From: Deltaproteobacteria bacterium
GTDB lineage: Bacteria; Bdellovibrionota; Bdellovibrionia; Bdellovibrionales; Bdellovibrionaceae
Assembly (NCBI GenBank): GCA_017302835.1
Contig: JAFLCC010000006.1
Location: forward strand, 124,001 to 188,000
Direction: 5' to 3'
DNA: 64,000 bases
Made by a program: the position numbers and the translations under genes. Shown one piece after another: positions 36,833 through 54,173 of this stretch. The notes beneath the pieces were generated by a model that was not told where the DNA came from, ran no database searches, and saw only the letters and a program-made list of their open reading frames with translations. Each line of letters starts with the position of its first letter. Positions within the stretch are counted from its first letter, which is position 1.

Positions 36833-39800
36833 ATGGTAACTCATAGGACTCCAAAAAATCCCATTCGTATTGTCACGGCAGCATCTTTATTTGATGGGCA
36901 TGATGCAACTATAAATATTATTCGCAGATTGCTTCAAGATCATGGTGCCGAGGTGATTCATCTGGGGCATAACCGCAGTGTTTTAGATGTGGCCAAAGCC
37001 ATACTTCAAGAGGGGGCCCAGGGTGTGTGCGTGAGTTCCTATCAGGGTGGTCACATGGAATACTTTAAATATTTAAAAGATATTTTAGCTGAATGTGGTT
37101 TGTCCTACGTGAAAATATTTGGCGGTGGAGGTGGGGTTATCGTTTGGGAAGAAAAGAAAGAGCTAGAAGCCTACGGGATCAATCAAATCTTTCACCCAGA
37201 AGATGGCCGAAAAATGGGACTAGAAGGCATGATTCAAATGATTATGGAGGCCTGCGATTTTGATCCTCGATCTCAAGTTCTAATGAAAATGGAATCAACT
37301 CTTCAAAAGACAAACTATTTTGCCTCAAGTTTAGGAAAAGACCCTATCCCCATGTTGGCTTTAGGCAGGGCTATCAATTCCATCGAATTAAATTCCGGAA
37401 ATTCAGAGCCAAATGGAAATTCTGGCAAAACAGAGACCTTCGATCTAGAAAAATTAGAATTAAGTTCCTTTGCTAATAAAAAAAAGAAGGCCCCCTTCGT
37501 TGTTGGAATTACGGGAACTGGGGGCGCAGGAAAATCTTCCTTGATCGACGAACTGGCGCTTCGATTTTTAAACCAATTTCCGCAAATGAAAATAGCCATT
37601 GCCTGTGTTGATCCTTCGAAAAGAAAAACGGGTGGGGCCTTATTGGGGGATCGTATTCGCATGAATTCTTTATCCAGATCCCATATTTTCATGAGGAGCT
37701 TGGCTACGCGTGGATCGGGGCAAGAGATTTCATTACCTCTTAAAAATATTTTGAATCTGTTCAAGGATTTAGATTTTGATTTAATTATTGCAGAAACCAG
37801 TGGGATAGGACAAGCCTCTTCGCAAATTACAGAAATTTGTGACCTTCCTATCTATGTCATGACGAGCGAGTATGGAGCTCCTTCGCAATTGGAAAAAATT
37901 GACATGCTTGATTTTGCTTCCATTGTAGCCATAAATAAGTCAGATCGAAGAGGAGCTTTGGACGCACTGAGGGCAGTGAGTAAGCAATATCGCCGGTCCA
38001 GAAAAATATTTGATGATGCGACTGTGGTGCCTGTTTTTTTAACCCAGGCGGCGCAATTTAATGACAGTGGTGTAAATCAATTATTTACCGAATTAGTGAA
38101 GCAGTTAGAGTTTAAAACTCAAAATAACGAAATGATAGCGGGAAAAGAAAGTGTGATCATTCCAGGAGCTAGAGTTCAATACTTACTTGAAATTACCAAC
38201 ACGATTAGGAATTATAAAAAAAGAGTTTGTGCCTTGATGCCGGAGTTATCTCGAGTCGGTTTTTACGAAAATATTAAAACTTTAGATTTAAAAAGAATTA
38301 TCAACGAAGTTGAATTTAAAAATTATGCAGACAAAGTTCTTTCTCAGTTAAGCCTTGAAGAGAAGAAAGAACTTTTGGGATGGGACGAGAAATATAATTT
38401 ATACGCCCAAGACGAAATGGTCTATCATGTTCGTGGAAAGGAATTTCGTAACTCCTTAGTGACACGAACACTTTCTGGAACAAAAATTAAAAAAGTTGTC
38501 GTTCCAGATAAATCAGATTGGGGAGATCGATTTAAATATTTAAAATTAGAAAATGTACCGGGGGAATTTCCTTTTACAGCTGGAGTTTTTCCAACAAAGC
38601 GCACAGATGAAGATCCTAAGCGGATGTTTGCAGGTGAGGGAACTCCAGAAAGAACCAATAAACGATTTCACTTTCTTTGCCAGGGTGAAAAGGCTCATCG
38701 TCTTTCAACGGCTTTTGATTCGGTGACCCTGTATGGACAAGATCCTGACCTGCGACCGGATATTTTTGGCAAGGTTGGGGAAAGTGGAGTCAGCATTTGC
38801 TGTCTTGAGGATATGAAAAAACTTTATGCAGGGTTTGATCTTTGTTCTCCAAACACCAGTGTCAGCATGACGATCAATGGACCCGCGCCAATTATTTTGG
38901 CTTATTTTTTTAATACGGCTTTGGATCAGCAAGTTGAAAAGAAAGAAAAAGAATTGGGTCGAAAATTGAGCGAAATTGAATTGAAAGAAGTTTCCGCCTG
39001 GACAGTGCAAAATGTTCGAGGTACCGTGCAAGCCGATATTCTAAAGGAAGATCAGGGGCAAAATACCTGCATTTTTTCGATCCAATTTGCATTAAAGATG
39101 ATGGGTGATATTCAAGAATATTTTGTCAATAACAAGATTAAAAATTTCTATTCAGTAAGTATTTCGGGATATCATATTGCCGAAGCCGGAGCGAATCCGA
39201 TCTCTCAGTTAGCCTTTACCTTGTCCAATGGGTTTACCTTTGTCGAATATTATCTTCAAAGGGGTTTGCCTATCGATGAATTTGCTCCTAATTTGAGTTT
39301 CTTTTTTTCCAATGGTTTGGATGCCGAGTACACGGTTCTGGGGCGCGTGGCTCGACGTATTTGGGCGATTGCCATGAAAGACCTTTACCGCGCCAATGAA
39401 CGCTCTCAGAAATTAAAATATCATATTCAAACTAGTGGTCGGTCTCTTCATGCTCAAGAGATGGCTTTTAATGATATCCGAACCACCTTGCAAGCGCTCA
39501 TGGCTTTAAATGATAATTGCAATAGCCTTCATACCAATGCCTATGACGAAGCGATAACCACCCCAACAGAGGAATCTGTACGTAGAGCCATGGCCATCCA
39601 AATGATTATCAATAGGGAATTGGGGCAAAGCAAAAATGAAAACTCACTTCAAGGTAGTTATTTTGTAGAAGAGCTGACCGATTTGGTTGAGGAAGCCGTT
39701 CTCGAAGAGTTTTTACGAATTAATGAACGCGGCGGAGTCCTCGGAGCGATGGAGACCCAGTACCAGCGGTCCAAAATTCAAGAAGAGTCTCTCTATTATG

Positions 39801-40126
39801 AAAAATTAAAACACGATGGAACCCTACCGATTGTGGGTGTGAACACCTTTGTCGATCCTAAAACCGCCGTGAAAGACTATGTACCTCCAAAAATTGAGAT
39901 GGCCAGAGCCAGTTATGAAGAAAAGAAATTCCAATTAGACAACATCGTTGAATTTAAAGAAAAAAACTGCAAACAGGCTTCAGATTGTTTGCAGGAATTA
40001 AAAACCGTGGCTTTAAAGGGGGATAATATTTTTGCGTCCTTAATGAAAGCAGCCAGGTACTGCAGTCTTTATCAGCTTTCACAAGCCCTGTATGAAGTCG
40101 GTGGGGAATACCGCAGAAACGTGTAG
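36833..40126 (+). CDS. icmF: Fused isobutyryl-CoA mutase with G-protein chaperone (IcmF)
   Basis: IcmF interconverts isobutyryl-CoA and n-butyryl-CoA (and related acyl-CoAs) with adenosylcobalamin. The 1097-residue protein has the B12-binding domain first (about 1-150: AASLFDGHDATINIIRRLL, with the His ligand; GVCVSSYQGGHMEY; FGGGGGVI). Next come the MeaB-type GTPase (about 215-430: GITGTGGAGKSSLIDEL, GALLGDRIRMNSLS, IAETSGIGQASSQI, NKSDRRGA) and the large mutase barrel (about 530-1097: PNTSVSMTINGPAPIILAYFF, SISGYHIAEAGANPISQLAFTLSNG). Order and length fit IcmF, not separate MCM. It needs adenosylcobalamin; no cobalamin genes lie here. Its extreme 3' end is copied at 44911. Confidence 0.95.
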   Translation: MVTHRTPKNPIRIVTAASLFDGHDATINIIRRLLQDHGAEVIHLGHNRSVLDVAKAILQEGAQGVCVSSYQGGHMEYFKYLKDILAECGLSYVKIFGGGGGVIVWEEKKELEAYGINQIFHPEDGRKMGLEGMIQMIMEACDFDPRSQVLMKMESTLQKTNYFASSLGKDPIPMLALGRAINSIELNSGNSEPNGNSGKTETFDLEKLELSSFANKKKKAPFVVGITGTGGAGKSSLIDELALRFLNQFPQMKIAIACVDPSKRKTGGALLGDRIRMNSLSRSHIFMRSLATRGSGQEISLPLKNILNLFKDLDFDLIIAETSGIGQASSQITEICDLPIYVMTSEYGAPSQLEKIDMLDFASIVAINKSDRRGALDALRAVSKQYRRSRKIFDDATVVPVFLTQAAQFNDSGVNQLFTELVKQLEFKTQNNEMIAGKESVIIPGARVQYLLEITNTIRNYKKRVCALMPELSRVGFYENIKTLDLKRIINEVEFKNYADKVLSQLSLEEKKELLGWDEKYNLYAQDEMVYHVRGKEFRNSLVTRTLSGTKIKKVVVPDKSDWGDRFKYLKLENVPGEFPFTAGVFPTKRTDEDPKRMFAGEGTPERTNKRFHFLCQGEKAHRLSTAFDSVTLYGQDPDLRPDIFGKVGESGVSICCLEDMKKLYAGFDLCSPNTSVSMTINGPAPIILAYFFNTALDQQVEKKEKELGRKLSEIELKEVSAWTVQNVRGTVQADILKEDQGQNTCIFSIQFALKMMGDIQEYFVNNKIKNFYSVSISGYHIAEAGANPISQLAFTLSNGFTFVEYYLQRGLPIDEFAPNLSFFFSNGLDAEYTVLGRVARRIWAIAMKDLYRANERSQKLKYHIQTSGRSLHAQEMAFNDIRTTLQALMALNDNCNSLHTNAYDEAITTPTEESVRRAMAIQMIINRELGQSKNENSLQGSYFVEELTDLVEEAVLEEFLRINERGGVLGAMETQYQRSKIQEESLYYEKLKHDGTLPIVGVNTFVDPKTAVKDYVPPKIEMARASYEEKKFQLDNIVEFKEKNCKQASDCLQELKTVALKGDNIFASLMKAARYCSLYQLSQALYEVGGEYRRNV

Positions 40127-40134
40127 TGGATTCT
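40106..40134 (+). repeat. Direct repeat, first copy (icmF 3' end)
   Basis: These 29 bases, covering the last codons of icmF, its stop codon and a few bases beyond, occur again identically at 44911-44939. Exact copies 4.8 kb apart in the same orientation bracket the Omp85/two-component operon. Confidence 0.85.
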
Positions 40135-40284
40135 CTTTGAAACTCAGGTTACAATTTATTCCTGCCATTGGCCCAAGATAAACCAGAAGTGGCAAGCTTG
40201 TATAAAATACAAGGTTATAATTTACTATTTAAATTCAAAGGAATATAAACTAGAGTGTACAGCTGTCTGTTTTTTTATACACCC

Positions 40285-40352: not shown

Positions 40353-40368
40353 TGGTGGCCCTTTTGCT
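40353..40368 (+). promoter_or_regulatory. Sigma-54 (-24/-12) promoter candidate
   Basis: TGGTGGCCCTTTTGCT has the GG (40354-40355) and GC (40366-40367) with exactly ten bases between, TGG at -24 and TTTGCT at -12, against the consensus TGGCAC-N5-TTGCA. Transcription would start about 40379, leaving 28 bases and a GGGGA ribosome site before the ATG 40408. The middle of the -24 element deviates. Confidence 0.5.
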
Positions 40369-40407: not shown

Positions 40408-41562
40408 ATGAAACTTGTATTTATTTTTTTACTTTCGCCATGGTTTTTGAAAGCACAGGATGTGCCGAATCCAAATGAATTCGTCATTGATAAAATTGTA
40501 TGCGAAGGAAATTCAAATACCAGCTGTGATTTAATTCAAAAAGAGATTTATTTAAATGTTGGCGACAAAGTTAATGAAGAAGAGCTATCAAATGCAAAAA
40601 TTCGTCTTCAATTAAAAAATCTTTTCAATTCTGTAAATATTTTTATGAAGAAGAGCTCGGAAAGAGGCCATGTAGATATAGTTATCGAGGTGATTGAAGG
40701 TAATCCATTTTTTATGGAGGTAGAATATGGTCTTGAGGGCAGTAAATACAGCAATTTTAATAGGCGAAATGTCAGCATAGGAAACCGAAATCTATTAGGG
40801 TTAGGAAAAATATTACGTTTTACCTATAGCCAAAATGAATTCTCTTGGCAGAACTCAAAATACTTTATCGGTACTTTGTCTTATGTAGATCCCAATTTAT
40901 TTGGATCTAAAAAACTATTCTTTAATTTTAATGCTTCCTTTGAACGACCATTAAATAGTCCAGACTCAGCAGATTTTGGTTTTTATGATAAGAATGACCA
41001 TTATTCAGCCTTGTTTGGAATTCGATTCTTTGATTTCTCTAATATTTCAATTTCACAAATGAAAAAAGAGGAAGTGTATCGCTTTCAAAACAGCAACGAT
41101 GCTTCGAAGCGCACTAGCATTGTTGATTCAATTACCTATGGATGGAATTCAGAAGATGATACCAATTTTTCAACCTCAGGAAGCCGCTTTGCCTTAAGTT
41201 ATTCTGAGGAACATCAACAGTCTTTAACTGATTCCTACATCAATAACGATAGATCGTATGAATACCTTTTTTTCAAAAAGAATTGGTCCTTAGCACCGAA
41301 AAACTACTTGAGTTTATCTTCAAATATTTATCGGTTTAATGATTTAATAGCACCAGAGGTCCAGAGTAATAGTTCCTTACTTTACAGTTATCAATTGAAA
41401 GATCGCTTAAACGGGTTAGGATCTCGTTCGCGATTATTCGTTGATGTGAATCCTATCGCTACTAAAGACTTTAGCACTGTGAACTTCCGTGCGGGTTATA
41501 TAACAGAATTTGCTGGATTTGGATTGTTAAAGCTCGGGCTTACTTATTGGGGGAACATGTAA
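40408..41562 (+). CDS. Short Omp85-type protein with one POTRA domain
   Basis: 384 residues with a signal peptide (MKLVFIFLLSPWFLKAQ). Residues about 22-105 form one POTRA-like domain (IDKIVCEGNSNTSCDLIQKEIYLNVGDKVNEEELSNAKIRLQLKNLFNSVNIFMK...VDIVIEVIEGN). Strand-rich sequence follows (about 106-384: NRNLLGLGKILRFTYSQNEF, YFIGTLSYVDPNLFGSKKLFFNF, AGYITEFAGFGLLKLGLTYWGNM). The barrel is about 280 residues, shorter than BamA or FhaC, and no VRGF-type motif was spotted. It may be a reduced outer-membrane sensor or assembly factor. First gene of a four-gene operon with a kinase and a sigma-54 activator. Confidence 0.7.
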   Translation: MKLVFIFLLSPWFLKAQDVPNPNEFVIDKIVCEGNSNTSCDLIQKEIYLNVGDKVNEEELSNAKIRLQLKNLFNSVNIFMKKSSERGHVDIVIEVIEGNPFFMEVEYGLEGSKYSNFNRRNVSIGNRNLLGLGKILRFTYSQNEFSWQNSKYFIGTLSYVDPNLFGSKKLFFNFNASFERPLNSPDSADFGFYDKNDHYSALFGIRFFDFSNISISQMKKEEVYRFQNSNDASKRTSIVDSITYGWNSEDDTNFSTSGSRFALSYSEEHQQSLTDSYINNDRSYEYLFFKKNWSLAPKNYLSLSSNIYRFNDLIAPEVQSNSSLLYSYQLKDRLNGLGSRSRLFVDVNPIATKDFSTVNFRAGYITEFAGFGLLKLGLTYWGNM

Positions 41563-42239
41563 TGCGCATCGCTTTCATTTTCCTAGTGTTTTATTTTGAA
41601 TGTTTTGCGGTTGAAGTTAAATCTATAAAAGAGGGTAGTCAGATTTCCTTTCTAGTAAGTGATATTTCTTTTCCTGAAAATTTTGAGAAGTCTCTTAAGA
41701 GTGGACTTTCTAATATTTATATATTGAAGCAAAGTGTTTGGAAAAATGGTCAATTGGTATTTGCTTCTGATATTGCTGTGAAGGTTATTTTTGACCTTTG
41801 GGACGAGTTGTACTTTGTTACTAAAGAAGTCGGTTCAAATAACTCTGTGGATAAATACAGTCATACATCCAACATTCTTGAAAAACTCAAGTCCTATAAA
41901 TTTTCTTCAACTTTGAAGGCTTCAGATTTCAAAAAATCAGATAATTACGAAGTCAAAGTTACTGTTATTTTGGATCCAATCACAAAAGAAAAGCAAAAGA
42001 AAATTAAAACATGGTTAGCAGAAAATCAAGTTAACTTACCAGGCATATCCAATCGGGCACCTACTTCTAAACAAACACCGTCAAATGACCAAGGGGCCTC
42101 GGCTTTTGATACGGTAAAAACTTCGGTTTTTAATAAAGTTCTTAATTCGGAATTAGATAGCGAGATCGTCGAAGGTGCTTGGATTTTTGAGTCAGACAGA
42201 ATAAAAGTCAGCGGAAAGGATTTTGAAAATGAGAAATAA
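41562..42239 (+). CDS. Periplasmic protein of unknown function in the Omp85/two-component operon
   Basis: The 225-residue protein starts at ATG 41562, sharing one base with the stop of the Omp85-type gene (TAATG), and has a signal peptide (MRIAFIFLVFYFECFA). It is alpha/beta with several strands around SQISFLVSDISFPENFEKSLKSGLSNIYIL and a possible DUF4390-like core (SDIAVKVIFDLWDELYFV; YEVKVTVILDPITKEKQKK). DUF4390 proteins commonly precede NtrY-like kinases, which makes this a fitting comparison, although only by eye. Its end overlaps the kinase start by eleven bases. Likely a periplasmic partner of the kinase. Confidence 0.55.
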   Translation: MRIAFIFLVFYFECFAVEVKSIKEGSQISFLVSDISFPENFEKSLKSGLSNIYILKQSVWKNGQLVFASDIAVKVIFDLWDELYFVTKEVGSNNSVDKYSHTSNILEKLKSYKFSSTLKASDFKKSDNYEVKVTVILDPITKEKQKKIKTWLAENQVNLPGISNRAPTSKQTPSNDQGASAFDTVKTSVFNKVLNSELDSEIVEGAWIFESDRIKVSGKDFENEK

Positions 42240-43332
42240 AGTACTCATCCTTTTAGTTGTCACACTTCTGATCATCGGAATTTTCCCTTTGATTTCCAAC
42301 TATTTCTTACTAAATGATATTTTAGAAACCCAAGAAAAAATATATTTAAACGCTGATTTGAATAGATCCTTGTTAGCTTATGAAGCCTCCCTTAAAAAAC
42401 TTTCGAAATTTGATCCAGTAAATGAAAATGAGTACAGAAATAAGTTTCAAGACCTTCAAAATTTAAAATTACTCTACGGCGAAGACACTTATTTTAGTAA
42501 AGCCGTCCGGTTGACTTCAATTAAATACTTTTTTCTTTTGTTTGGAATAATCATATTTATTTCGTTTTTTGCAGGAACGGCTCTCAGTTTTAAAGTAAAC
42601 CAAATGTATGTGAAATCACTTGATGAATTAATAAAAGCGAAAGAAAAATCTCTTTTTTTAAATGAAATTGCAAAATGGAAAGAGGTTGCCCAGAAAATCG
42701 CTCATGAAATGCGAAGACCGATTCAACCAATTCGTATTTGGGCATCTCAACTAAAAAAACAGTCTTCTGCAAATACAATTGAAGTCAAGGAAGCGGCGAT
42801 CGCTATCGAAGAGGAAATTTTGTTTCTGTCTAACATGGTGAATGAGTTTTCTGATTTTGCCAGTGTACCTAAACCTAAACTTGAAAAAGTAGATTTTGGC
42901 CAATTCATAAAAAACTTTGTCGTTCAGTATAAGGATATTTGGACCGAGGCAAAATTTAATTTCGTTAAAACAGCTGGTGAGTTTCCAGTTTTATTAGATG
43001 CTAAACTGTTTCGCACACTTTTAGCTAACTTAGTGGAAAATGCTATCGATGCTAATTTGAATAAAGAAGTTGATTTCACTTTGGATCTTTATTTATCCGA
43101 AGGCCAATTGCAATTCAGCATTTTTAATACGGGTATAGAGCTAAGTGCACCAGAACGAGAACGAATTTTCGATATGTATTACTCAACGAAAAATACCCAT
43201 ACGAATAAAGGGTTAGGATTAACGATTGTGAAAACAATAGTTCTTGAGCACAATGGTGAAATTCAATGTTTGGAAGCGATTGGCGGCGTAAAATTCCATG
43301 TAAGACTTCCACTATTTAAGAGGGAAATATGA
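42229..43332 (+). CDS. Membrane histidine kinase
   Basis: The 367-residue protein has two membrane segments (about 5-27 and 99-121) around a small periplasmic loop of roughly 70 residues. A HisKA helix follows with His159 in KIAHEMRRPIQPIRIW, then the ATPase domain with LVENAIDANL (N box), IFNTG and FDMYYSTKNTHTNKGLGLTIVKTIV (F and G2 boxes). The sequence around the phospho-His (H-E-M-R-R-P-I-Q-P) resembles NtrY-type kinases. It should phosphorylate the NtrC-type regulator encoded next, whose ATG overlaps its stop (ATGA). Signals could come from the periplasm via the two upstream proteins; that is inference. Confidence 0.9.
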   Translation: MRNKVLILLVVTLLIIGIFPLISNYFLLNDILETQEKIYLNADLNRSLLAYEASLKKLSKFDPVNENEYRNKFQDLQNLKLLYGEDTYFSKAVRLTSIKYFFLLFGIIIFISFFAGTALSFKVNQMYVKSLDELIKAKEKSLFLNEIAKWKEVAQKIAHEMRRPIQPIRIWASQLKKQSSANTIEVKEAAIAIEEEILFLSNMVNEFSDFASVPKPKLEKVDFGQFIKNFVVQYKDIWTEAKFNFVKTAGEFPVLLDAKLFRTLLANLVENAIDANLNKEVDFTLDLYLSEGQLQFSIFNTGIELSAPERERIFDMYYSTKNTHTNKGLGLTIVKTIVLEHNGEIQCLEAIGGVKFHVRLPLFKREI

Positions 43333-44684
43333 ATCAAAAACGTCTCTTCGTTGTCGATGACGATAAAAACATTAGAAAAAGTCTTCAAATCGCATTACAG
43401 AACGAAGGTTTTGTCGTTTCTGTTTTTGAAAATCCAGTCGCTGTGTTGATAGAACTAAAAAATGGGGAACCTGACATCATCGTTTGTGATATTTGCATGG
43501 ACGAGCTCACAGGCATCGATTTATTTCAGCGTTTGATCGCTGATGGCTATGAAATCCCAGTCATTTTTATTTCCGGTCAGGCCAGCTTGTCGGATGCCGT
43601 AAAAGGTGTCCAGTTGGGTGCCTATGATTTTTTAGAAAAGCCATTCGCTCCAGAAAAACTTGTTGTTACGATTGAAAAGTGTTTGCAACTGAAAAAAATT
43701 AAAAATGAAATGAATGATTTAAAGAGTCAGGTCGTTGAGACTGATTTTAAAGGCAAGTCCCCTTCTTTCCTTAATGTTGTCGCAGCTATCAGTAAAGTAG
43801 CTCCAACGACAGTTTCTGTTTTAATTTCTGGCGAAAGTGGAACGGGGAAAGAACTTATAGCTAAAGAGATCCACGCTCAAAGTCGTGTTGCTAGTGGTCC
43901 GTTTATTAAAGTAAACTGTTCATCTATTCCTGAAAATCTGATTGAGAGCGAGTTTTTTGGATATGTAAAAGGCGCCTACACTGGTGCAGATCGCAATAAA
44001 AAAGGATTCTTTGAATTAGCTCATGGTGGAACCATATTTCTGGATGAAATCGGAGAAATGAGTTTAGCGGCTCAGGCTAAAATTCTACGAGTGACTCAGC
44101 AAAAAGAAATTCAAAAATTAGGATCAGAGAGAGTCATTCCTGTCGATGTTAGAATCGTTGCTGCAACTAATCGTGATTTGTCTCGCGATGTCGCTGCCGG
44201 TCGGTTTCGAGAGGATTTATATTTTCGATTGAATGTATTTCCTATTCATTCACCAGCACTGTGCGAGCGCACCCAAGATATTCCACTTTTGGCAGAGCAT
44301 TTCCTTTCAGAGTATGTGCGCATCAACCGAATTCCTCAGAAATTTATTTCTCCAAAAGCAATGAAGCAATTAATGGAATACCATTGGCCTGGAAATATTC
44401 GGGAACTTAAAAATGTCATTGAGCGAATGTCTATTCTGGGTGGTCAAGTGCTTGATGTTCATTTACTATCATTTTTACCATCGACTGCCTCCTCCAAAAC
44501 TTCTTTTTCTGGAAATTCTCTAAAGGATTTTAAAAATCGTGTCGAGCGCGAATATATTCTAGATGTTCTAAAGCAGGCATCGGGTAACATTTCAGAAGCT
44601 GCAAATCGTTTAGAAATTGAAAGAACTTACTTGCACAAAAAAATTCAGGACTACGAAATACGTAAACGTGAGTACTTTACCTAG
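43329..44684 (+). CDS. NtrC-family sigma-54-dependent response regulator
   Basis: The 451-residue protein has a receiver domain (VVDDDKN, phospho-acceptor Asp54 in IIVCDICMDELTG, Lys in DFLEKPFAPEKL). The AAA+ sigma-54 activation domain (about 145-380) has Walker A GESGTGKE, the sigma-54-contacting loop GAYTGA (YVKGAYTGADRNKKG), FLDEIGEM, Sensor I and Arg fingers in the usual order. A Fis-type helix-turn-helix closes the chain (SGNISEAANRLEIERTYLHKKIQDYEI). It would activate sigma-54 promoters; two candidates flank the operon (40353 and 44984). The start is coupled to the kinase by ATGA. Confidence 0.95.
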   Translation: MNQKRLFVVDDDKNIRKSLQIALQNEGFVVSVFENPVAVLIELKNGEPDIIVCDICMDELTGIDLFQRLIADGYEIPVIFISGQASLSDAVKGVQLGAYDFLEKPFAPEKLVVTIEKCLQLKKIKNEMNDLKSQVVETDFKGKSPSFLNVVAAISKVAPTTVSVLISGESGTGKELIAKEIHAQSRVASGPFIKVNCSSIPENLIESEFFGYVKGAYTGADRNKKGFFELAHGGTIFLDEIGEMSLAAQAKILRVTQQKEIQKLGSERVIPVDVRIVAATNRDLSRDVAAGRFREDLYFRLNVFPIHSPALCERTQDIPLLAEHFLSEYVRINRIPQKFISPKAMKQLMEYHWPGNIRELKNVIERMSILGGQVLDVHLLSFLPSTASSKTSFSGNSLKDFKNRVEREYILDVLKQASGNISEAANRLEIERTYLHKKIQDYEIRKREYFT

Positions 44685-44737
44685 ATCAATCGAAATCGTA
44701 AGGGGGAAAAAAGGATTTTTCAAGAGCGGAAGTGGTT

Positions 44738-44788
44738 CTTTGTCTCGCTAACGAAAGTTCTCAGAAACTAAAATATCATATTCAAACT
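44738..44788 (+). pseudogene. Degenerate fragment of an icmF-like mutase gene
   Basis: These 51 bases align with icmF 39383-39433 with about nine differences and keep the frame (ANESSQKLKYHIQT versus ANERSQKLKYHIQT) before running into a stop. It is an internal piece of an adenosylcobalamin-dependent mutase gene, cut off on both sides. Together with the 29-bp icmF 3' end copy at 44911 it shows a decayed duplicate of the end of icmF. Between them lies unrelated sequence. Confidence 0.7.
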
Positions 44789-44979
44789 CAGACAGCGTTG
44801 TGAAGTTTAACCTCCGGAATCAATCTCACAGCTTCAACAAGCTTTAAAACGCGATCAATGGAAACCTTCTGCAGGCTTCCAAATAGTATACTTGTAACAA
44901 TGGTTAAATCGAATACCGCAGAAACGTGTAGTGGATTCTTTTGTATGGGGTATAGGAAGTTCATGTATTGCAAAAACAC
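44788..44979 (-). pseudogene. Possible fragment of an XRE-type antitoxin
   Basis: The minus strand encodes 63 residues ending in SLQKVSIDRVLKLVEAVRLIPEVKL. The end is reminiscent of the last helices of HTH_37/HigA-like antitoxins (sIDRLLkLLeaLG..V.v). The upstream part is antisense to the icmF scraps and not homologous to a gene, so only the last 30 codons may be real ancestry. No toxin gene is near. A weak call. Confidence 0.25.
44911..44939 (+). repeat. Direct repeat, second copy (icmF 3' end)
   Basis: Identical over 29 bases to 40106-40134, including the icmF TAG. Flanking sequence differs on both sides (upstream ATC instead of GTGG; downstream TTTTGTA instead of CTTTGAA). It marks a recombination or duplication junction 45 bases upstream of the sigma-54 promoter at 44984. 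Confidence 0.85.
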
Positions 44980-44983
44980 TTAG

Positions 44984-44999
44984 TGGCACCTGGTTTGCC
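44984..44999 (+). promoter_or_regulatory. Sigma-54 (-24/-12) promoter, near consensus
   Basis: TGGCACCTGGTTTGCC matches TGGCAC exactly and TTTGC at -12, with GG and GC separated by exactly ten bases. The start would be near 45010; the GTG at 45053 and its GGGGAG site (45041-45046) follow at proper distance. It is 300 bases downstream of the NtrC-type regulator gene. Confidence 0.75.
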
Positions 45000-45052
45000 A
45001 TTAAATATCACAATCGGTAATGTTGAATTTCAAATTAAATGGGGAGATTCTT

Positions 45053-45568
45053 GTGAAAAAAATGACAACTATTTTAGGTCTTGTGTTAATTTCGTTTACA
45101 ATTTGTACATCAGCTTCCTTTGCAGGCGAAGTTTTGAAGACTTGTACATTTAATAAAAAAATGCCTGGAGATAGTCGTGTTATTCCAACTACGATTCAAA
45201 TTATAAAAAACGGAAATAAGTTCATTGCTAAAACGATTCAATTGGTAAATGGCACTATGAACGAATTACCCGAGGAATCAGCAACTATTTCAGAATTTTT
45301 TGTTGGTCCGGGATTAACGTCAACGACACCTAACATGAACCAAGCAGAGATTCTTATCCAGGGAACAGAAGAGTACTTGAATTCGCCAGATTTTGGCAAT
45401 TTTTTTAATGTTGGATTAGATCTTAAATCCATCAGGCGCGCCTGGTTATTCAAAATCGGTAAGTTTACGCATAAGGGTAGCACAGTTATAATTGAAGCCA
45501 AAGATAAGTATAAAAATGAGATGGGTTCATTTGTTAATACCGGATTTATGCCATTTGCCTGTGAATAA
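45053..45568 (+). CDS. Small exported protein behind a sigma-54 promoter
   Basis: 171 residues from GTG 45053 (GGGGAG six bases before). It has a signal peptide (MKKMTTILGLVLISFTICTSASFA) and a mature chain of about 147 residues with two cysteines (LKTCTFN and the last residues FACE), which could form one disulphide joining the ends. Mostly beta (TTIQIIKNGNKFIAKTIQLVNG; GSTVIIEAKDKY). No family recognised. It is the likely output gene of the neighbouring kinase/regulator pair; that role is inferred from the promoter and location. A reading frame extends upstream to 45020 but would bury the signal peptide. Confidence 0.65.
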   Translation: MKKMTTILGLVLISFTICTSASFAGEVLKTCTFNKKMPGDSRVIPTTIQIIKNGNKFIAKTIQLVNGTMNELPEESATISEFFVGPGLTSTTPNMNQAEILIQGTEEYLNSPDFGNFFNVGLDLKSIRRAWLFKIGKFTHKGSTVIIEAKDKYKNEMGSFVNTGFMPFACE

Positions 45569-45635
45569 TGGCACTTAAAATTATTTGTTGCCTTTTCAAA
45601 TGTTAAAACTGTCGAATTTAAGAACTTAATTTCAG

Positions 45636-46049
45636 TTAAGGTGTCCAGGTGCCGCCATGGGTGGTGGAGCAATCGATCTGTGCAGTGCTGGCGTTGAAAT
45701 AGGTATCATAGTATCTAATGATGCCATCCGTTCGTGTACAGCTGCCCACACTTGTATCGGACGAAGCTGTTGAACATGTATTTGAGTTTCCTGAAAGCCA
45801 ATTTATCCCATTTATACCAGCGCTAGCGCTGTAGCGATTAAACTCTGCGGTACATGTTGTACTATCTGTATTAGAATCGGATCCGCTATTGAAATCGATA
45901 CAAAGGTAGCCAGAATTTACTTTAGTTAAACGGCATCTGCCGCCTTGAATATTAGTTGCTTGATCAATATCACTTCGAGTCTTTTGACATGAGAGTAAAA
46001 ATGAGATGGAAAGAAAAAATACAACGAATATTAATTCTATAGTTTTCAT
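45636..46049 (-). CDS. Small lipoprotein
   Basis: 137 residues. The signal peptide MKTIELIFVVFFLSISFLLSC ends in a good lipobox (LLSC, Cys21). The mature part is rich in Ser, Thr, Asn and Gly and has about eight cysteines (GGRCRL, YLCIDF, TTCTAEF, NTCSTA, GSCTRT, IDCST), so it is probably a disulphide-rich surface domain. It is divergent from the trypsin-like protease at 46215; the gap between them carries a perfect 19-bp palindrome. No function assigned. Confidence 0.65.
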   Translation of the reverse strand: MKTIELIFVVFFLSISFLLSCQKTRSDIDQATNIQGGRCRLTKVNSGYLCIDFNSGSDSNTDSTTCTAEFNRYSASAGINGINWLSGNSNTCSTASSDTSVGSCTRTDGIIRYYDTYFNASTAQIDCSTTHGGTWTP

Positions 46050-46157: not shown

Positions 46158-46214
46158 CCTTGCCATCAAAGGAGACGAAAAGATATAACTTTTTTCTTAG
46201 AATAGGGTGTGGGT

Positions 46215-49054: not shown

Positions 49055-49096
49055 TTACCAATATAGTGTTCTATCTTGATTGGCATGGAGATATTT

Positions 49097-50689
49097 ATGA
49101 GAAAGTATAGAAGTGGAAATTTACTGCTTATTTATTTGATTCTTGTTGTTATTTATAGTTCAAACTTATCTGCTGGTTCTGCGATAAAATCCAATTCTAG
49201 TTGTATTGCTATCTATCAAATTAAATCAAATTTTAAAGCGATTTCGCTAATTGATCAAGTAATCAATAATCTGAATATTCATAAAAATAATTTTCCTTTA
49301 TTAGTAGTAACGGATTCGTTAAAATCTTATTTAGAACCAGTTCTAAAAAAATATGCCCTCATCACTGACAAAATCGAAGAAAAGTCGAGACTTAATAATC
49401 TTCAACTAGCAGTGACCACCACTGAAAAAACATTGCAGACCTTTTACGATTTATTGAAACATATCAATAATGAACTCGAGAAGTCCAAAAGAAATGAAGA
49501 AAAAATTAAATCTTTGTCTGTACAAATGAAATCTTGTTTAAGAAATATTTCTACTTGTCAGTTAAATATTCGTGATGCTTTACAAGAGTCCAATAGTGAT
49601 ATGAATGATGCAAAGGAATATTTAGAAGAACTCAAGGGAAAAGTTTCTGAGCTAAAAGAGTTTAAACTGCATCTAGAAAACTCGAGAGAGTTAAGTGACT
49701 CTATAAATGAAAACATGAGACTAAGTCTCTTAGATCTAATAGCGACGCAAATTCAAATGGTAGAAATAACCCTTCCTCAGATTGTAAATGCTCACTTGAC
49801 AGCTCAGTCATCACTGATGACCATTGCTGAATTGCAAATGCCCAGTTTATTAAAAACAAAAGTTCAAGCTGCCGAAGCTGAGGCCAGAGGTGCTTATGGC
49901 ATAGGAGCTCTTCAAATTTACAAAAATCAAGATGATTCTTTTTCTCTTAAAGATCGACCAAAAGAAGATCGACTTACTAAACATCAAGGACTGGTTATAA
50001 AAACACACGAACTTCCAACAAGTGAATTATCTCAAAAATTTAGGCATATGATTGACCAAAGTGAGCTTTCCCAGCTTGGCACAAAGCTACTTAAGTCCCT
50101 TGAAACCAAGAGCTTTAAAGATGTTTTTTGGGAAACGCTAGATCTGCGAAAAAAATCTCTAAAAACAGGTCCAACATTTCAAGTAGACTCCCTGACCCCA
50201 AAGGATATAGAACAGATAATTTTATCTGTTCTATATAATCACCCTGAATCTTTTTTTTCTAGGCTCAGAACAATAAGTTATGGGGAATCTCGATATAATA
50301 CTTGGGTAGACTTTCCGACGGACTTGTACGATATGAAATTTATTCCCCAAATCTACGGTCTTTTTCTGAAAGGAATTACAACTGAAAAATTTCAGGCATA
50401 TGAATCCTGGCTTAAAGATATAATTCAAACTTATCGCAATGAAAAAGAGCTCGAATTAAAACGTTATGGTCTAAGTCGATTTTTTCCTTTAGCAGAAAAA
50501 AGAAATGAGATTTTACTTTTAAAAAAGCAAATATCAACTGCTAAAAAGATATTAAGATTTTTAAAATATCCTATTGCTTTAGAACAACTATTCCACGACG
50601 CTAAAAATCACAATGAACCTTTTTGGCTTTATTTTAAATACTCCTACTGGTCCAATGAAAAAGCATTTATTCTCGATATTGAAATATAG
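49097..50689 (+). CDS. Exported coiled-coil protein, tandem paralogue 1
   Basis: 530 residues from ATG 49097, with GGAG six bases before; a TTG at 49076 would add seven residues. Signal peptide (YRSGNLLLIYLILVVIYSSNLSAG), mature N-terminus with a cysteine (SSCIAIYQ). Residues about 55-240 are helical coiled coil with a CxxxxSxCQ pair (SCLRNISTCQLNI). A hydrophobic LTAQSSLMTIAELQMPSLLKTK stretch follows, then a globular helical C-terminal half. Paralogous to the protein at 52593: both share SKRNEEKIKSLSVQMKSCL / TRRNEEKIKDLSDQMKKCL and MPSLLKTK / IPSLLKTK. Function unknown; possibly envelope-associated. Confidence 0.6.
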   Translation: MRKYRSGNLLLIYLILVVIYSSNLSAGSAIKSNSSCIAIYQIKSNFKAISLIDQVINNLNIHKNNFPLLVVTDSLKSYLEPVLKKYALITDKIEEKSRLNNLQLAVTTTEKTLQTFYDLLKHINNELEKSKRNEEKIKSLSVQMKSCLRNISTCQLNIRDALQESNSDMNDAKEYLEELKGKVSELKEFKLHLENSRELSDSINENMRLSLLDLIATQIQMVEITLPQIVNAHLTAQSSLMTIAELQMPSLLKTKVQAAEAEARGAYGIGALQIYKNQDDSFSLKDRPKEDRLTKHQGLVIKTHELPTSELSQKFRHMIDQSELSQLGTKLLKSLETKSFKDVFWETLDLRKKSLKTGPTFQVDSLTPKDIEQIILSVLYNHPESFFSRLRTISYGESRYNTWVDFPTDLYDMKFIPQIYGLFLKGITTEKFQAYESWLKDIIQTYRNEKELELKRYGLSRFFPLAEKRNEILLLKKQISTAKKILRFLKYPIALEQLFHDAKNHNEPFWLYFKYSYWSNEKAFILDIEI

Positions 50690-52592: not shown

Positions 52593-54173
52593 ATGTATTT
52601 ACAAAAGTTTCAAAAGATTAATTTAAGAACTTATATAAAATATATTCTTTTTGCTTCAATGATGACAGTGAACGCATCCCATTCTTTGGCCAGTTCTTGT
52701 TTGTCCTCCTATGGCGCTAATAATTACGAAAGTAATTATGCCAATAAAACAGAAGAACCCATTTCTCTTTTGAATCAGGTCATTCAGAATTTGTCTTCAA
52801 ATTCAAATGGATTTCCAATTCTGATTGTCTCTGAAACCATAGAATCATTTCTGAAAACTATTTTCGAAAAGTATAATGAAATGACGGATAAAATTTCAGA
52901 AAAAAAAGAGTTGAATGGGATAAGTTTTTCGGTGAGTAAGGCTGAATTAACAATAAATACATTTTATAATTTACATCGTAATTTGGAAACAGAACTCGCT
53001 AAAACAAGAAGAAATGAAGAAAAAATAAAAGATCTTTCAGATCAAATGAAAAAATGTTTAGCAAATATCAGTATTTGTCAGTCAAACATCAAAGATTCAA
53101 TGATCGAAACGAAAAAAGATATTCTTGAAACAAATGAATTTATACAGAATTTGCAGCTTAAAGCGAATGAGTTAAAAGACTTAAAAAATTGGCTGCCTGA
53201 GAGTATTCGTTTAGACGAGTTGGTTATGACTCCATTGTTGGAATTAATTGATACTTATATTCAAAATATTGAGAATATTTTTCCTCATATTTTGGAAAGC
53301 CATCTGAAAGCGCAATCGACCTTAATGGCTATGGCTGAATCTCAAATTCCCTCACTATTAAAAACAAAATCCATGGCTGCAGGCCTTGAAGCTGAGTGGC
53401 TCGTCGAGCTTGGAGCTCTTAGATTGAAACGTGACTCTACAAATGACAACGAAACATCAGGAAAAAAATCAACACTAATTGAAATGAAAAGTGAGCTAGC
53501 CCAACGGTTTGAACGTCAGATTAAGGAAAGCGAGCTCTCACCTTTTGGAAGACAAATTATTTCAGACTTAAACAATAAAAGGTTAGTCGATGTTTTTATC
53601 GATGCTGTAAACAGAAGACAATCGGATCAGAATACTTTTGATCGGAGTGAAAGTGTGTATTTGACAGCAAAGGATTTGGAACAAATAACATTCCGAATGC
53701 TTTACCAGAAGGGACCAGGCCGCCTTTTTGAAAGAGAAAATTTTCTATTGTTTAAGAGGACTAATGGACACTGGGTGAGTGATTTAGTTCCCTACGTGGA
53801 TATTGGCACGAAAAGGTTTTCATTGGATTTCTATTTGCTATTTCTTCTTTCGAGAAATTTAAATAAGTTTAACTTTGATTCAATGAACGCTTGGTTTAAA
53901 GAAATTATGGAAAAATATTTATATGACAGAGAATCAGAAATTAAAAAATATGGAATAAAAACGTTTTTTTCTGGCTTAGCAATAGGCGCTGAAGCAAAAA
54001 ATATCAATCAAATAAAGACTGCAATTAGAGATTCCAAAATAATTCTTGAAATATTATCAAAACCTATACATAGTACTGTACTAAATGAGTTAAAAGGAGA
54101 AGCATTAATTTTAACTGGATGGGATACTAGAAAATTGACACCTACTGAGTTTTTCATACACTCCCCAAGATAA
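52593..54173 (+). CDS. Exported coiled-coil protein, tandem paralogue 2
   Basis: 526 residues, with GAGGTGA six bases before the ATG. Signal peptide region up to about residue 34 (YILFASMMTVNASHSLA), then SSCLSSYGANNYESNY. The sequence follows paralogue 1 throughout: LLNQVIQNLSSNSNGFPILIVSETIESFLKTIFEKY, TRRNEEKIKDLSDQMKKCLANISICQSNI, AQSTLMAMAESQIPSLLKTKSMA, SELAQRFERQIKESELSPFGRQI, and YLTAKDLEQITFRMLY. The coiled coil is about 55-235. Divergence between the two is large (roughly 30-40 per cent identity by eye), so the duplication is old and predates the IS relics now between them. Confidence 0.6.
   Translation: MYLQKFQKINLRTYIKYILFASMMTVNASHSLASSCLSSYGANNYESNYANKTEEPISLLNQVIQNLSSNSNGFPILIVSETIESFLKTIFEKYNEMTDKISEKKELNGISFSVSKAELTINTFYNLHRNLETELAKTRRNEEKIKDLSDQMKKCLANISICQSNIKDSMIETKKDILETNEFIQNLQLKANELKDLKNWLPESIRLDELVMTPLLELIDTYIQNIENIFPHILESHLKAQSTLMAMAESQIPSLLKTKSMAAGLEAEWLVELGALRLKRDSTNDNETSGKKSTLIEMKSELAQRFERQIKESELSPFGRQIISDLNNKRLVDVFIDAVNRRQSDQNTFDRSESVYLTAKDLEQITFRMLYQKGPGRLFERENFLLFKRTNGHWVSDLVPYVDIGTKRFSLDFYLLFLLSRNLNKFNFDSMNAWFKEIMEKYLYDRESEIKKYGIKTFFSGLAIGAEAKNINQIKTAIRDSKIILEILSKPIHSTVLNELKGEALILTGWDTRKLTPTEFFIHSPR

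Follow-up and report, generated by a model that had tools for sequence, protein, structure and literature searches.

The 64-kb window analyzed here (contig JAFLCC010000006.1 of a member of the Bdellovibrionaceae, positions 124,001 to 188,000) carries an exact match to the sigma-54 promoter consensus ahead of a gene for a small exported protein, referred to below as the small gene. The next unit upstream is a four-gene operon encoding, in order, a short BamA-like protein (mini-BamA), a 230-residue protein, a histidine kinase, and an NtrC-type response regulator, the activator. The reading that we consider probable joins three propositions: the site at 44984 functions as a sigma-54 promoter under an activator other than the adjacent one; the adjacent regulator switches on its own operon; and the two units became neighbors through a rearrangement of the DNA. 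A preliminary description of the locus, guided by gene proximity, had taken the small protein to be the natural target of the activator. Comparison among genomes points instead to the mini-BamA operon as the likely target, with a precise predicted site, and suggests that the small exported protein is probably part of another sigma-54 circuit.

In mechanistic terms, the promoter at 44984 would drive a secreted, probably disulfide-linked small protein once a non-adjacent, enhancer-binding activator engages it. The adjacent response regulator and its histidine kinase would mainly serve their own operon; the regulator would bind an 18-bp inverted repeat 88–93 nt upstream of a sigma-54 promoter before mini-BamA, and binding would raise mini-BamA, the 230-residue protein, the kinase, and the regulator itself. 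A rearrangement beside a mutase gene would have joined both units and left a broken mutase end between them. The sequences themselves show the promoter match, its retention in the nearest homologue, the arrangement of repeat and promoter ahead of the operon, the relic, and the missing linkage in other genomes; transcription, binding, positive autoregulation, the disulfide, and the order of events are inferred.

The sigma-54 site ahead of the small gene

The promoter candidate TGGCACCTGGTTTGC matches TGGCAC-N5-TTGC without a mismatch, its GG and GC stand at the exact sigma-54 spacing in a check against the consensus, and it is the sole exact copy in the window. The GTG start of the small gene at 45053 follows the site by 69 nt, with a ribosome-binding site in between (Table 1), so that both the near-perfect promoter and the favorable start and ribosome-site distances claimed in the preliminary description hold. 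By the usual sigma-54 geometry, transcription presumably starts near 45010, in which case the small gene would have a leader RNA of ~43 nt; an ATG at 45020 is an unlikely start codon because it lies too close to that position.

Sites of this type are enriched, as judged from 149 occurrences with at most one mismatch in the 3.63-Mb genome of origin (G000) versus 79 for a reversed control, and from 36 exact copies versus 20 for the same control when six genomes of the genus are summed. All six genus genomes encode rpoN. The genome of origin returned 21 matches to the Sigma54_activat domain, 14 of them strong (E below 1e-50), and other activator candidates are therefore plentiful; the seven weak matches may be other AAA+ proteins, and matches to this domain were also present in all 14 control genomes. 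Exact copies of the consensus occur at four places in the genome of origin. One lies upstream of fliL, fliM, fliN, and fliP, another (L047 5001–5015; G000 C1:299443) lies 215 nt upstream of a series of exported-looking proteins (no Pfam family for the two searched), a further copy lies inside a subtilase gene, and the remaining one is the site at 44984. A copy in G003, identical in all 15 letters to the fliL site of G000, has no frame of more than 100 codons starting within 150 nt and therefore provided no control.

Conservation of the site was sought among the complete homologues of the small gene. The nearest homologue, encoded in G136, is 46% identical to the window protein and is its sister in a FastTree phylogeny (support 1.000). 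Its gene is preceded by TGGCACGCCTCTCGC, which keeps nine of the ten fixed positions with GG and GC intact; a GTG start follows it at 62 nt. Judged from both strands of the window and of 21 fetched loci (716,624 positions), a 9-of-10 site that retains GG and GC would fall by chance in a 60-nt band with a probability of 0.0018 for a single homologue and 0.02 for at least one of the 12.

A chance match at 44984, with the small gene served by an ordinary promoter or by read-through, appears quite unlikely to us, and the observations that favor it deserve to be set out together. Exact matches taken alone occur at the genome-wide background (four copies versus three for the reversed pattern), one of the four lies within a coding gene, and a single exact copy is weak evidence for a promoter. 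Eleven of the 12 complete homologues lack a comparable site at promoter distance: the G025 homologue has a 9-of-10 site, but 123 nt before its ATG, the G147 homologue has one of 7 of 10 that lies over 200 nt upstream, and the nine others have no site of 7 or more of 10 in the stretch scanned. The G136 genome, on which the conservation relies, is 78% complete with 6% contamination. Against a chance match stand the strand, distance, and ribosome site of the 44984 candidate, the absence of any forward site ahead of the small gene in a simple sigma-70 scan of 44650–45700, and the retention of the site in the nearest homologue. The promoter at 44984 is thus probably real. Of the expectation that homologues would share the promoter, the part concerning GG and GC in the nearest relative was borne out and the part concerning the other 11 was not; since the nearest homologue keeps the site and the others are without one at that distance, the sequences support sigma-54 control for one branch of the small-protein family, not for the whole family.

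A probable enhancer-promoter pair of the operon and the likely reach of its activator

At a threshold of 1e-60, a profile built from four kinases detected the operon kinase in six of 140 genomes from the order (the genomes without a match are mostly not named individually), and the operon gene order is kept in all six, the first gene being split between two frames in G021. Every one of these operons has a GG-N10-GC site 29–61 nt before its first ATG, matching 7, 7, 7, 7, 8, and 9 of the ten fixed positions in the respective genomes. Upstream of this site, at 88, 88, 89, 93, 93, and 93 nt, stands an 18-bp inverted repeat, TGT-N12-ACA in form and rich in T at its center. Because the repeat and the GG-N10-GC site precede all six operons, the activator most likely controls its own operon, and we regard this enhancer-promoter pair as a stronger finding than the promoter of the small gene.

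The pairing also sets the operon copies apart from other occurrences of the repeat. Across the six operon genomes the exact pattern occurs at ten places, versus four for the reversed pattern, and these ten include the six operon copies, each with a sigma-54 site at 88–93 nt. Among the four other places, one in G002 is accompanied by an 8-of-10 site (at 76 nt, ahead of an 88-codon frame) that we attribute to chance; the operon repeat of the same genome additionally has a 7-of-10 site in the opposite direction at 105 nt. In the genome of origin, 41 places match the repeat with at most one mismatch, and only that of the operon has a sigma-54 site (at least 7 of 10) within 70–114 nt. Two operons, those of G111 and G130, were found after the repeat had been defined and were kept out of the repeat matrix, and for neither of them did any of 500 shuffles reach the repeat score. 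Positive autoregulation with few or no other targets would be the simplest reading of this pattern.

Several observations weigh against this assignment. In four of the six genomes the sigma-54 site of the operon agrees with the consensus at only 7 of 10 positions, additional GG-N10-GC sites (8 of 10 in G111, 7 of 10 in G008) lie farther upstream in two genomes, and the repeat was chosen by eye from four of the six genomes before the matrix was made. In the genome of origin the repeat pattern by itself is at background, both as exact copies (one versus two for the control) and with at most one mismatch (41 versus 40).

Under an alternative reading, the adjacent two-component system would act on the small gene as well as on its own operon, through a degenerate or different enhancer. 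The activator and the small gene are adjacent and in the same orientation. The preliminary placement of the gene directly behind the activator should be amended: the promoter begins 300 nt past the activator stop codon, beyond the relic of a mutase gene end. No operon-type repeat is found 88–93 nt before the small-gene promoter. The best repeat-like match there (44777–44794, score 10.0) is a weak one that 34 of 500 shuffles reach and that ranks 13th in the window. A possible activator site of the small gene is the 23-bp inverted repeat at 44859–44881, whose distance from the promoter is enhancer-like; the exact sequence of the repeat is present once in the genome, and with at most two mismatches it occurs at 13 places (each counted on both strands) versus five for the reversed pattern. 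The small gene of G136 has no counterpart of this repeat, and a search for an enhancer common to the G000 and G136 small genes found none.

Gene linkage argues in the same direction. None of the five other operon genomes shows the small gene behind the activator; the G002 contig stops 140 nt past the activator, but that genome is without a homologue of the small gene. Both units are present in G021 and G111, where they lie on different contigs and the small genes have no sigma-54 site of 7 or more. G136 keeps the promoter, yet is not among the six genomes with the operon kinase, and its small gene sits behind a sodium/proton exchanger gene. Activation of the small gene by its neighbor is thus not supported, and we judge it unlikely as an addition to control of the operon. 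Enhancers can act from other distances or through other sequences, and for this reason weak control by the adjacent activator is compatible with the absence of the repeat. The claim that proximity makes the small protein the natural target finds no backing in a comparison that places a repeat and a promoter before all six operons, and neither the repeat nor conserved linkage at the small gene.

The mutase relic offers an account of how the two units came to be neighbors. Its two pieces, 44738–44788 and 44911–44942, match 39383–39433 (84%) and 40106–40137 (97%), at the end of an intact methylmalonyl-CoA-mutase-like gene (36833–40126). In the five other genomes of the genus, the mutase gene is followed by a gene for a 197–233-residue protein and then by one whose product looks similar, by eye, to the trypsin-like protein at 46209 in the window; two of the 197–233-residue proteins were searched, one matching an outer-membrane barrel family and the other giving no match. 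Between its mutase and trypsin-like genes the window instead holds the operon, the relic, the small gene, and a 137-residue reverse-strand frame. The operon probably inserted here and duplicated the mutase end in doing so, an order of events deduced from this arrangement. Farther downstream, 49076–50689 and 52593–54173 encode two long exported-looking proteins that are alike by eye, the first having only weak Pfam matches.

A broader model can be put forward, which we consider about evenly balanced. The operon would form a closed envelope-sensing circuit that joins a short BamA-like outer-membrane protein and its exported partner with a kinase and a sigma-54 activator, the activator having the operon as its sole target by way of a single conserved enhancer in each genome. 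The two-cysteine proteins, for their part, would constitute an undescribed secreted family, one branch of which acquired sigma-54 control.

The small-protein family and the features of the locus

The preliminary description of a small exported two-cysteine protein agrees with the reading frame, which encodes 171 residues that begin with a hydrophobic leader and include two cysteines beyond it. Reading the leader by eye as cut after residue 24 gives a mature protein of 147 residues with Cys31 and Cys170. With a three-member profile, the family was detected in 14 of 368 genomes from the phylum, and the working set comprises 13 members after removal of G335 (a fragment at a contig start with internal stops); Cys31 and Cys170 are invariant in all 13 in the alignment. 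The family thereby gains its first set of members and invariant residues. The G021 member lies at L003 1393–1926, and its flanking genes are presumably hypE and hypD.

That the protein belongs to no recognized family was likewise upheld. Pfam returned no match for the window protein and single weak matches for the 13 members (best E 0.02), and NCBIfam gave nothing over cut-off for the three members searched, with one weak match at 12.5 bits against a cut-off of 1750. Profile searches found no family member in the other five genus genomes and none in viral_contigs, and in genome_contigs they found the G021 member only, with a profile that predates the inclusion of G136; PHROGs, queried with the window protein, held no relative. 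Three matches in a profile search of the PDB (E 0.36–0.94) are taken as chance.

A fold model built from two sequences is weak (pLDDT 64.6). It consists mainly of strands, with one helix after the leader, and places Cys31 in the first strand and Cys170 beside the last. Considered as a calycin-like barrel (lipocalin, avidin), this weak model has a best structural match of Z 6.6, the level of common arrangements, and Foldseek returned no match at 0.001. We would anticipate that the protein is small, secreted, and rich in beta structure, that a single disulfide closes it, and that it perhaps binds a ligand.

Of the operon proteins, mini-BamA scored 50.7 bits against the BamA equivalog model TIGR03303, below its curated cut-off of 297.15, and has a single POTRA stretch. 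The receiver, sigma-54 AAA+, and HTH_8 domains of the activator all score above their Pfam cut-offs.

Table 1. Coordinates of the features discussed, in window positions
Feature	Position	Strand	Basis or remark
18-bp inverted repeat, putative activator-binding site	40264–40281		kept before 6/6 operons
Sigma-54-like site TGGTGGCCCTTTTGC before the operon	40353–40367	+	7 of 10 fixed positions
Mini-BamA, one POTRA stretch and BamA-like barrel	40408–41562	+	POTRA match (Pfam), BamA similarity
230-residue operon protein	41547–42239	+	no Pfam family in Pfam search
Histidine kinase	42223–43332	+	HATPase_c over cut-off, HisKA just under; membrane-bound by eye
NtrC-type response regulator (activator)	43329–44684	+	receiver, sigma-54 AAA+, Fis-type helix-turn-helix
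Mutase relic (methylmalonyl-CoA-mutase-like gene, 3' end)	44738–44942	+	matches to intact gene end
23-bp inverted repeat, candidate activator site of the small gene	44859–44881		125 nt upstream of the 44984 promoter
Predicted sigma-54 promoter TGGCACCTGGTTTGC	44984–44998	+	exact TGGCAC-N5-TTGC; GG/GC kept in nearest homologue
Ribosome-binding site GGGGAG	45041–45046	+	sequence; 6 nt ahead of GTG 45053
Exported two-cysteine protein, 171 residues, GTG start	45053–45568	+	reading frame; 13 complete family members

Comparison with known systems

Among the titles and opening abstract lines listed in a literature search, none describes the mini-BamA operon or the small-protein family, and the limited extent of that listing does not establish absence. 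The activator shares its receiver, sigma-54 AAA+, and Fis-type helix-turn-helix (HTH) architecture with the NtrC-family regulators AtoC, NtrX, and ZraR; among the matches listed (25 of 127 families), it falls below the curated NCBIfam cut-offs. In a study of Salmonella sigma-54 systems, enhancers are described as often lying ~70–150 bp upstream of sigma-54 promoters, a range that the 88–93 nt of the mini-BamA operon fits, and as having no common consensus (PMC3844500). Two-component control of a BamA relative has been described for BaeSR and bamK, a BamA paralog of Klebsiella pneumoniae (PMC13059784). In contrast to that system, the BamA relative encoded in the window is short, has one POTRA stretch, and shares an operon with the kinase and a sigma-54-type regulator.
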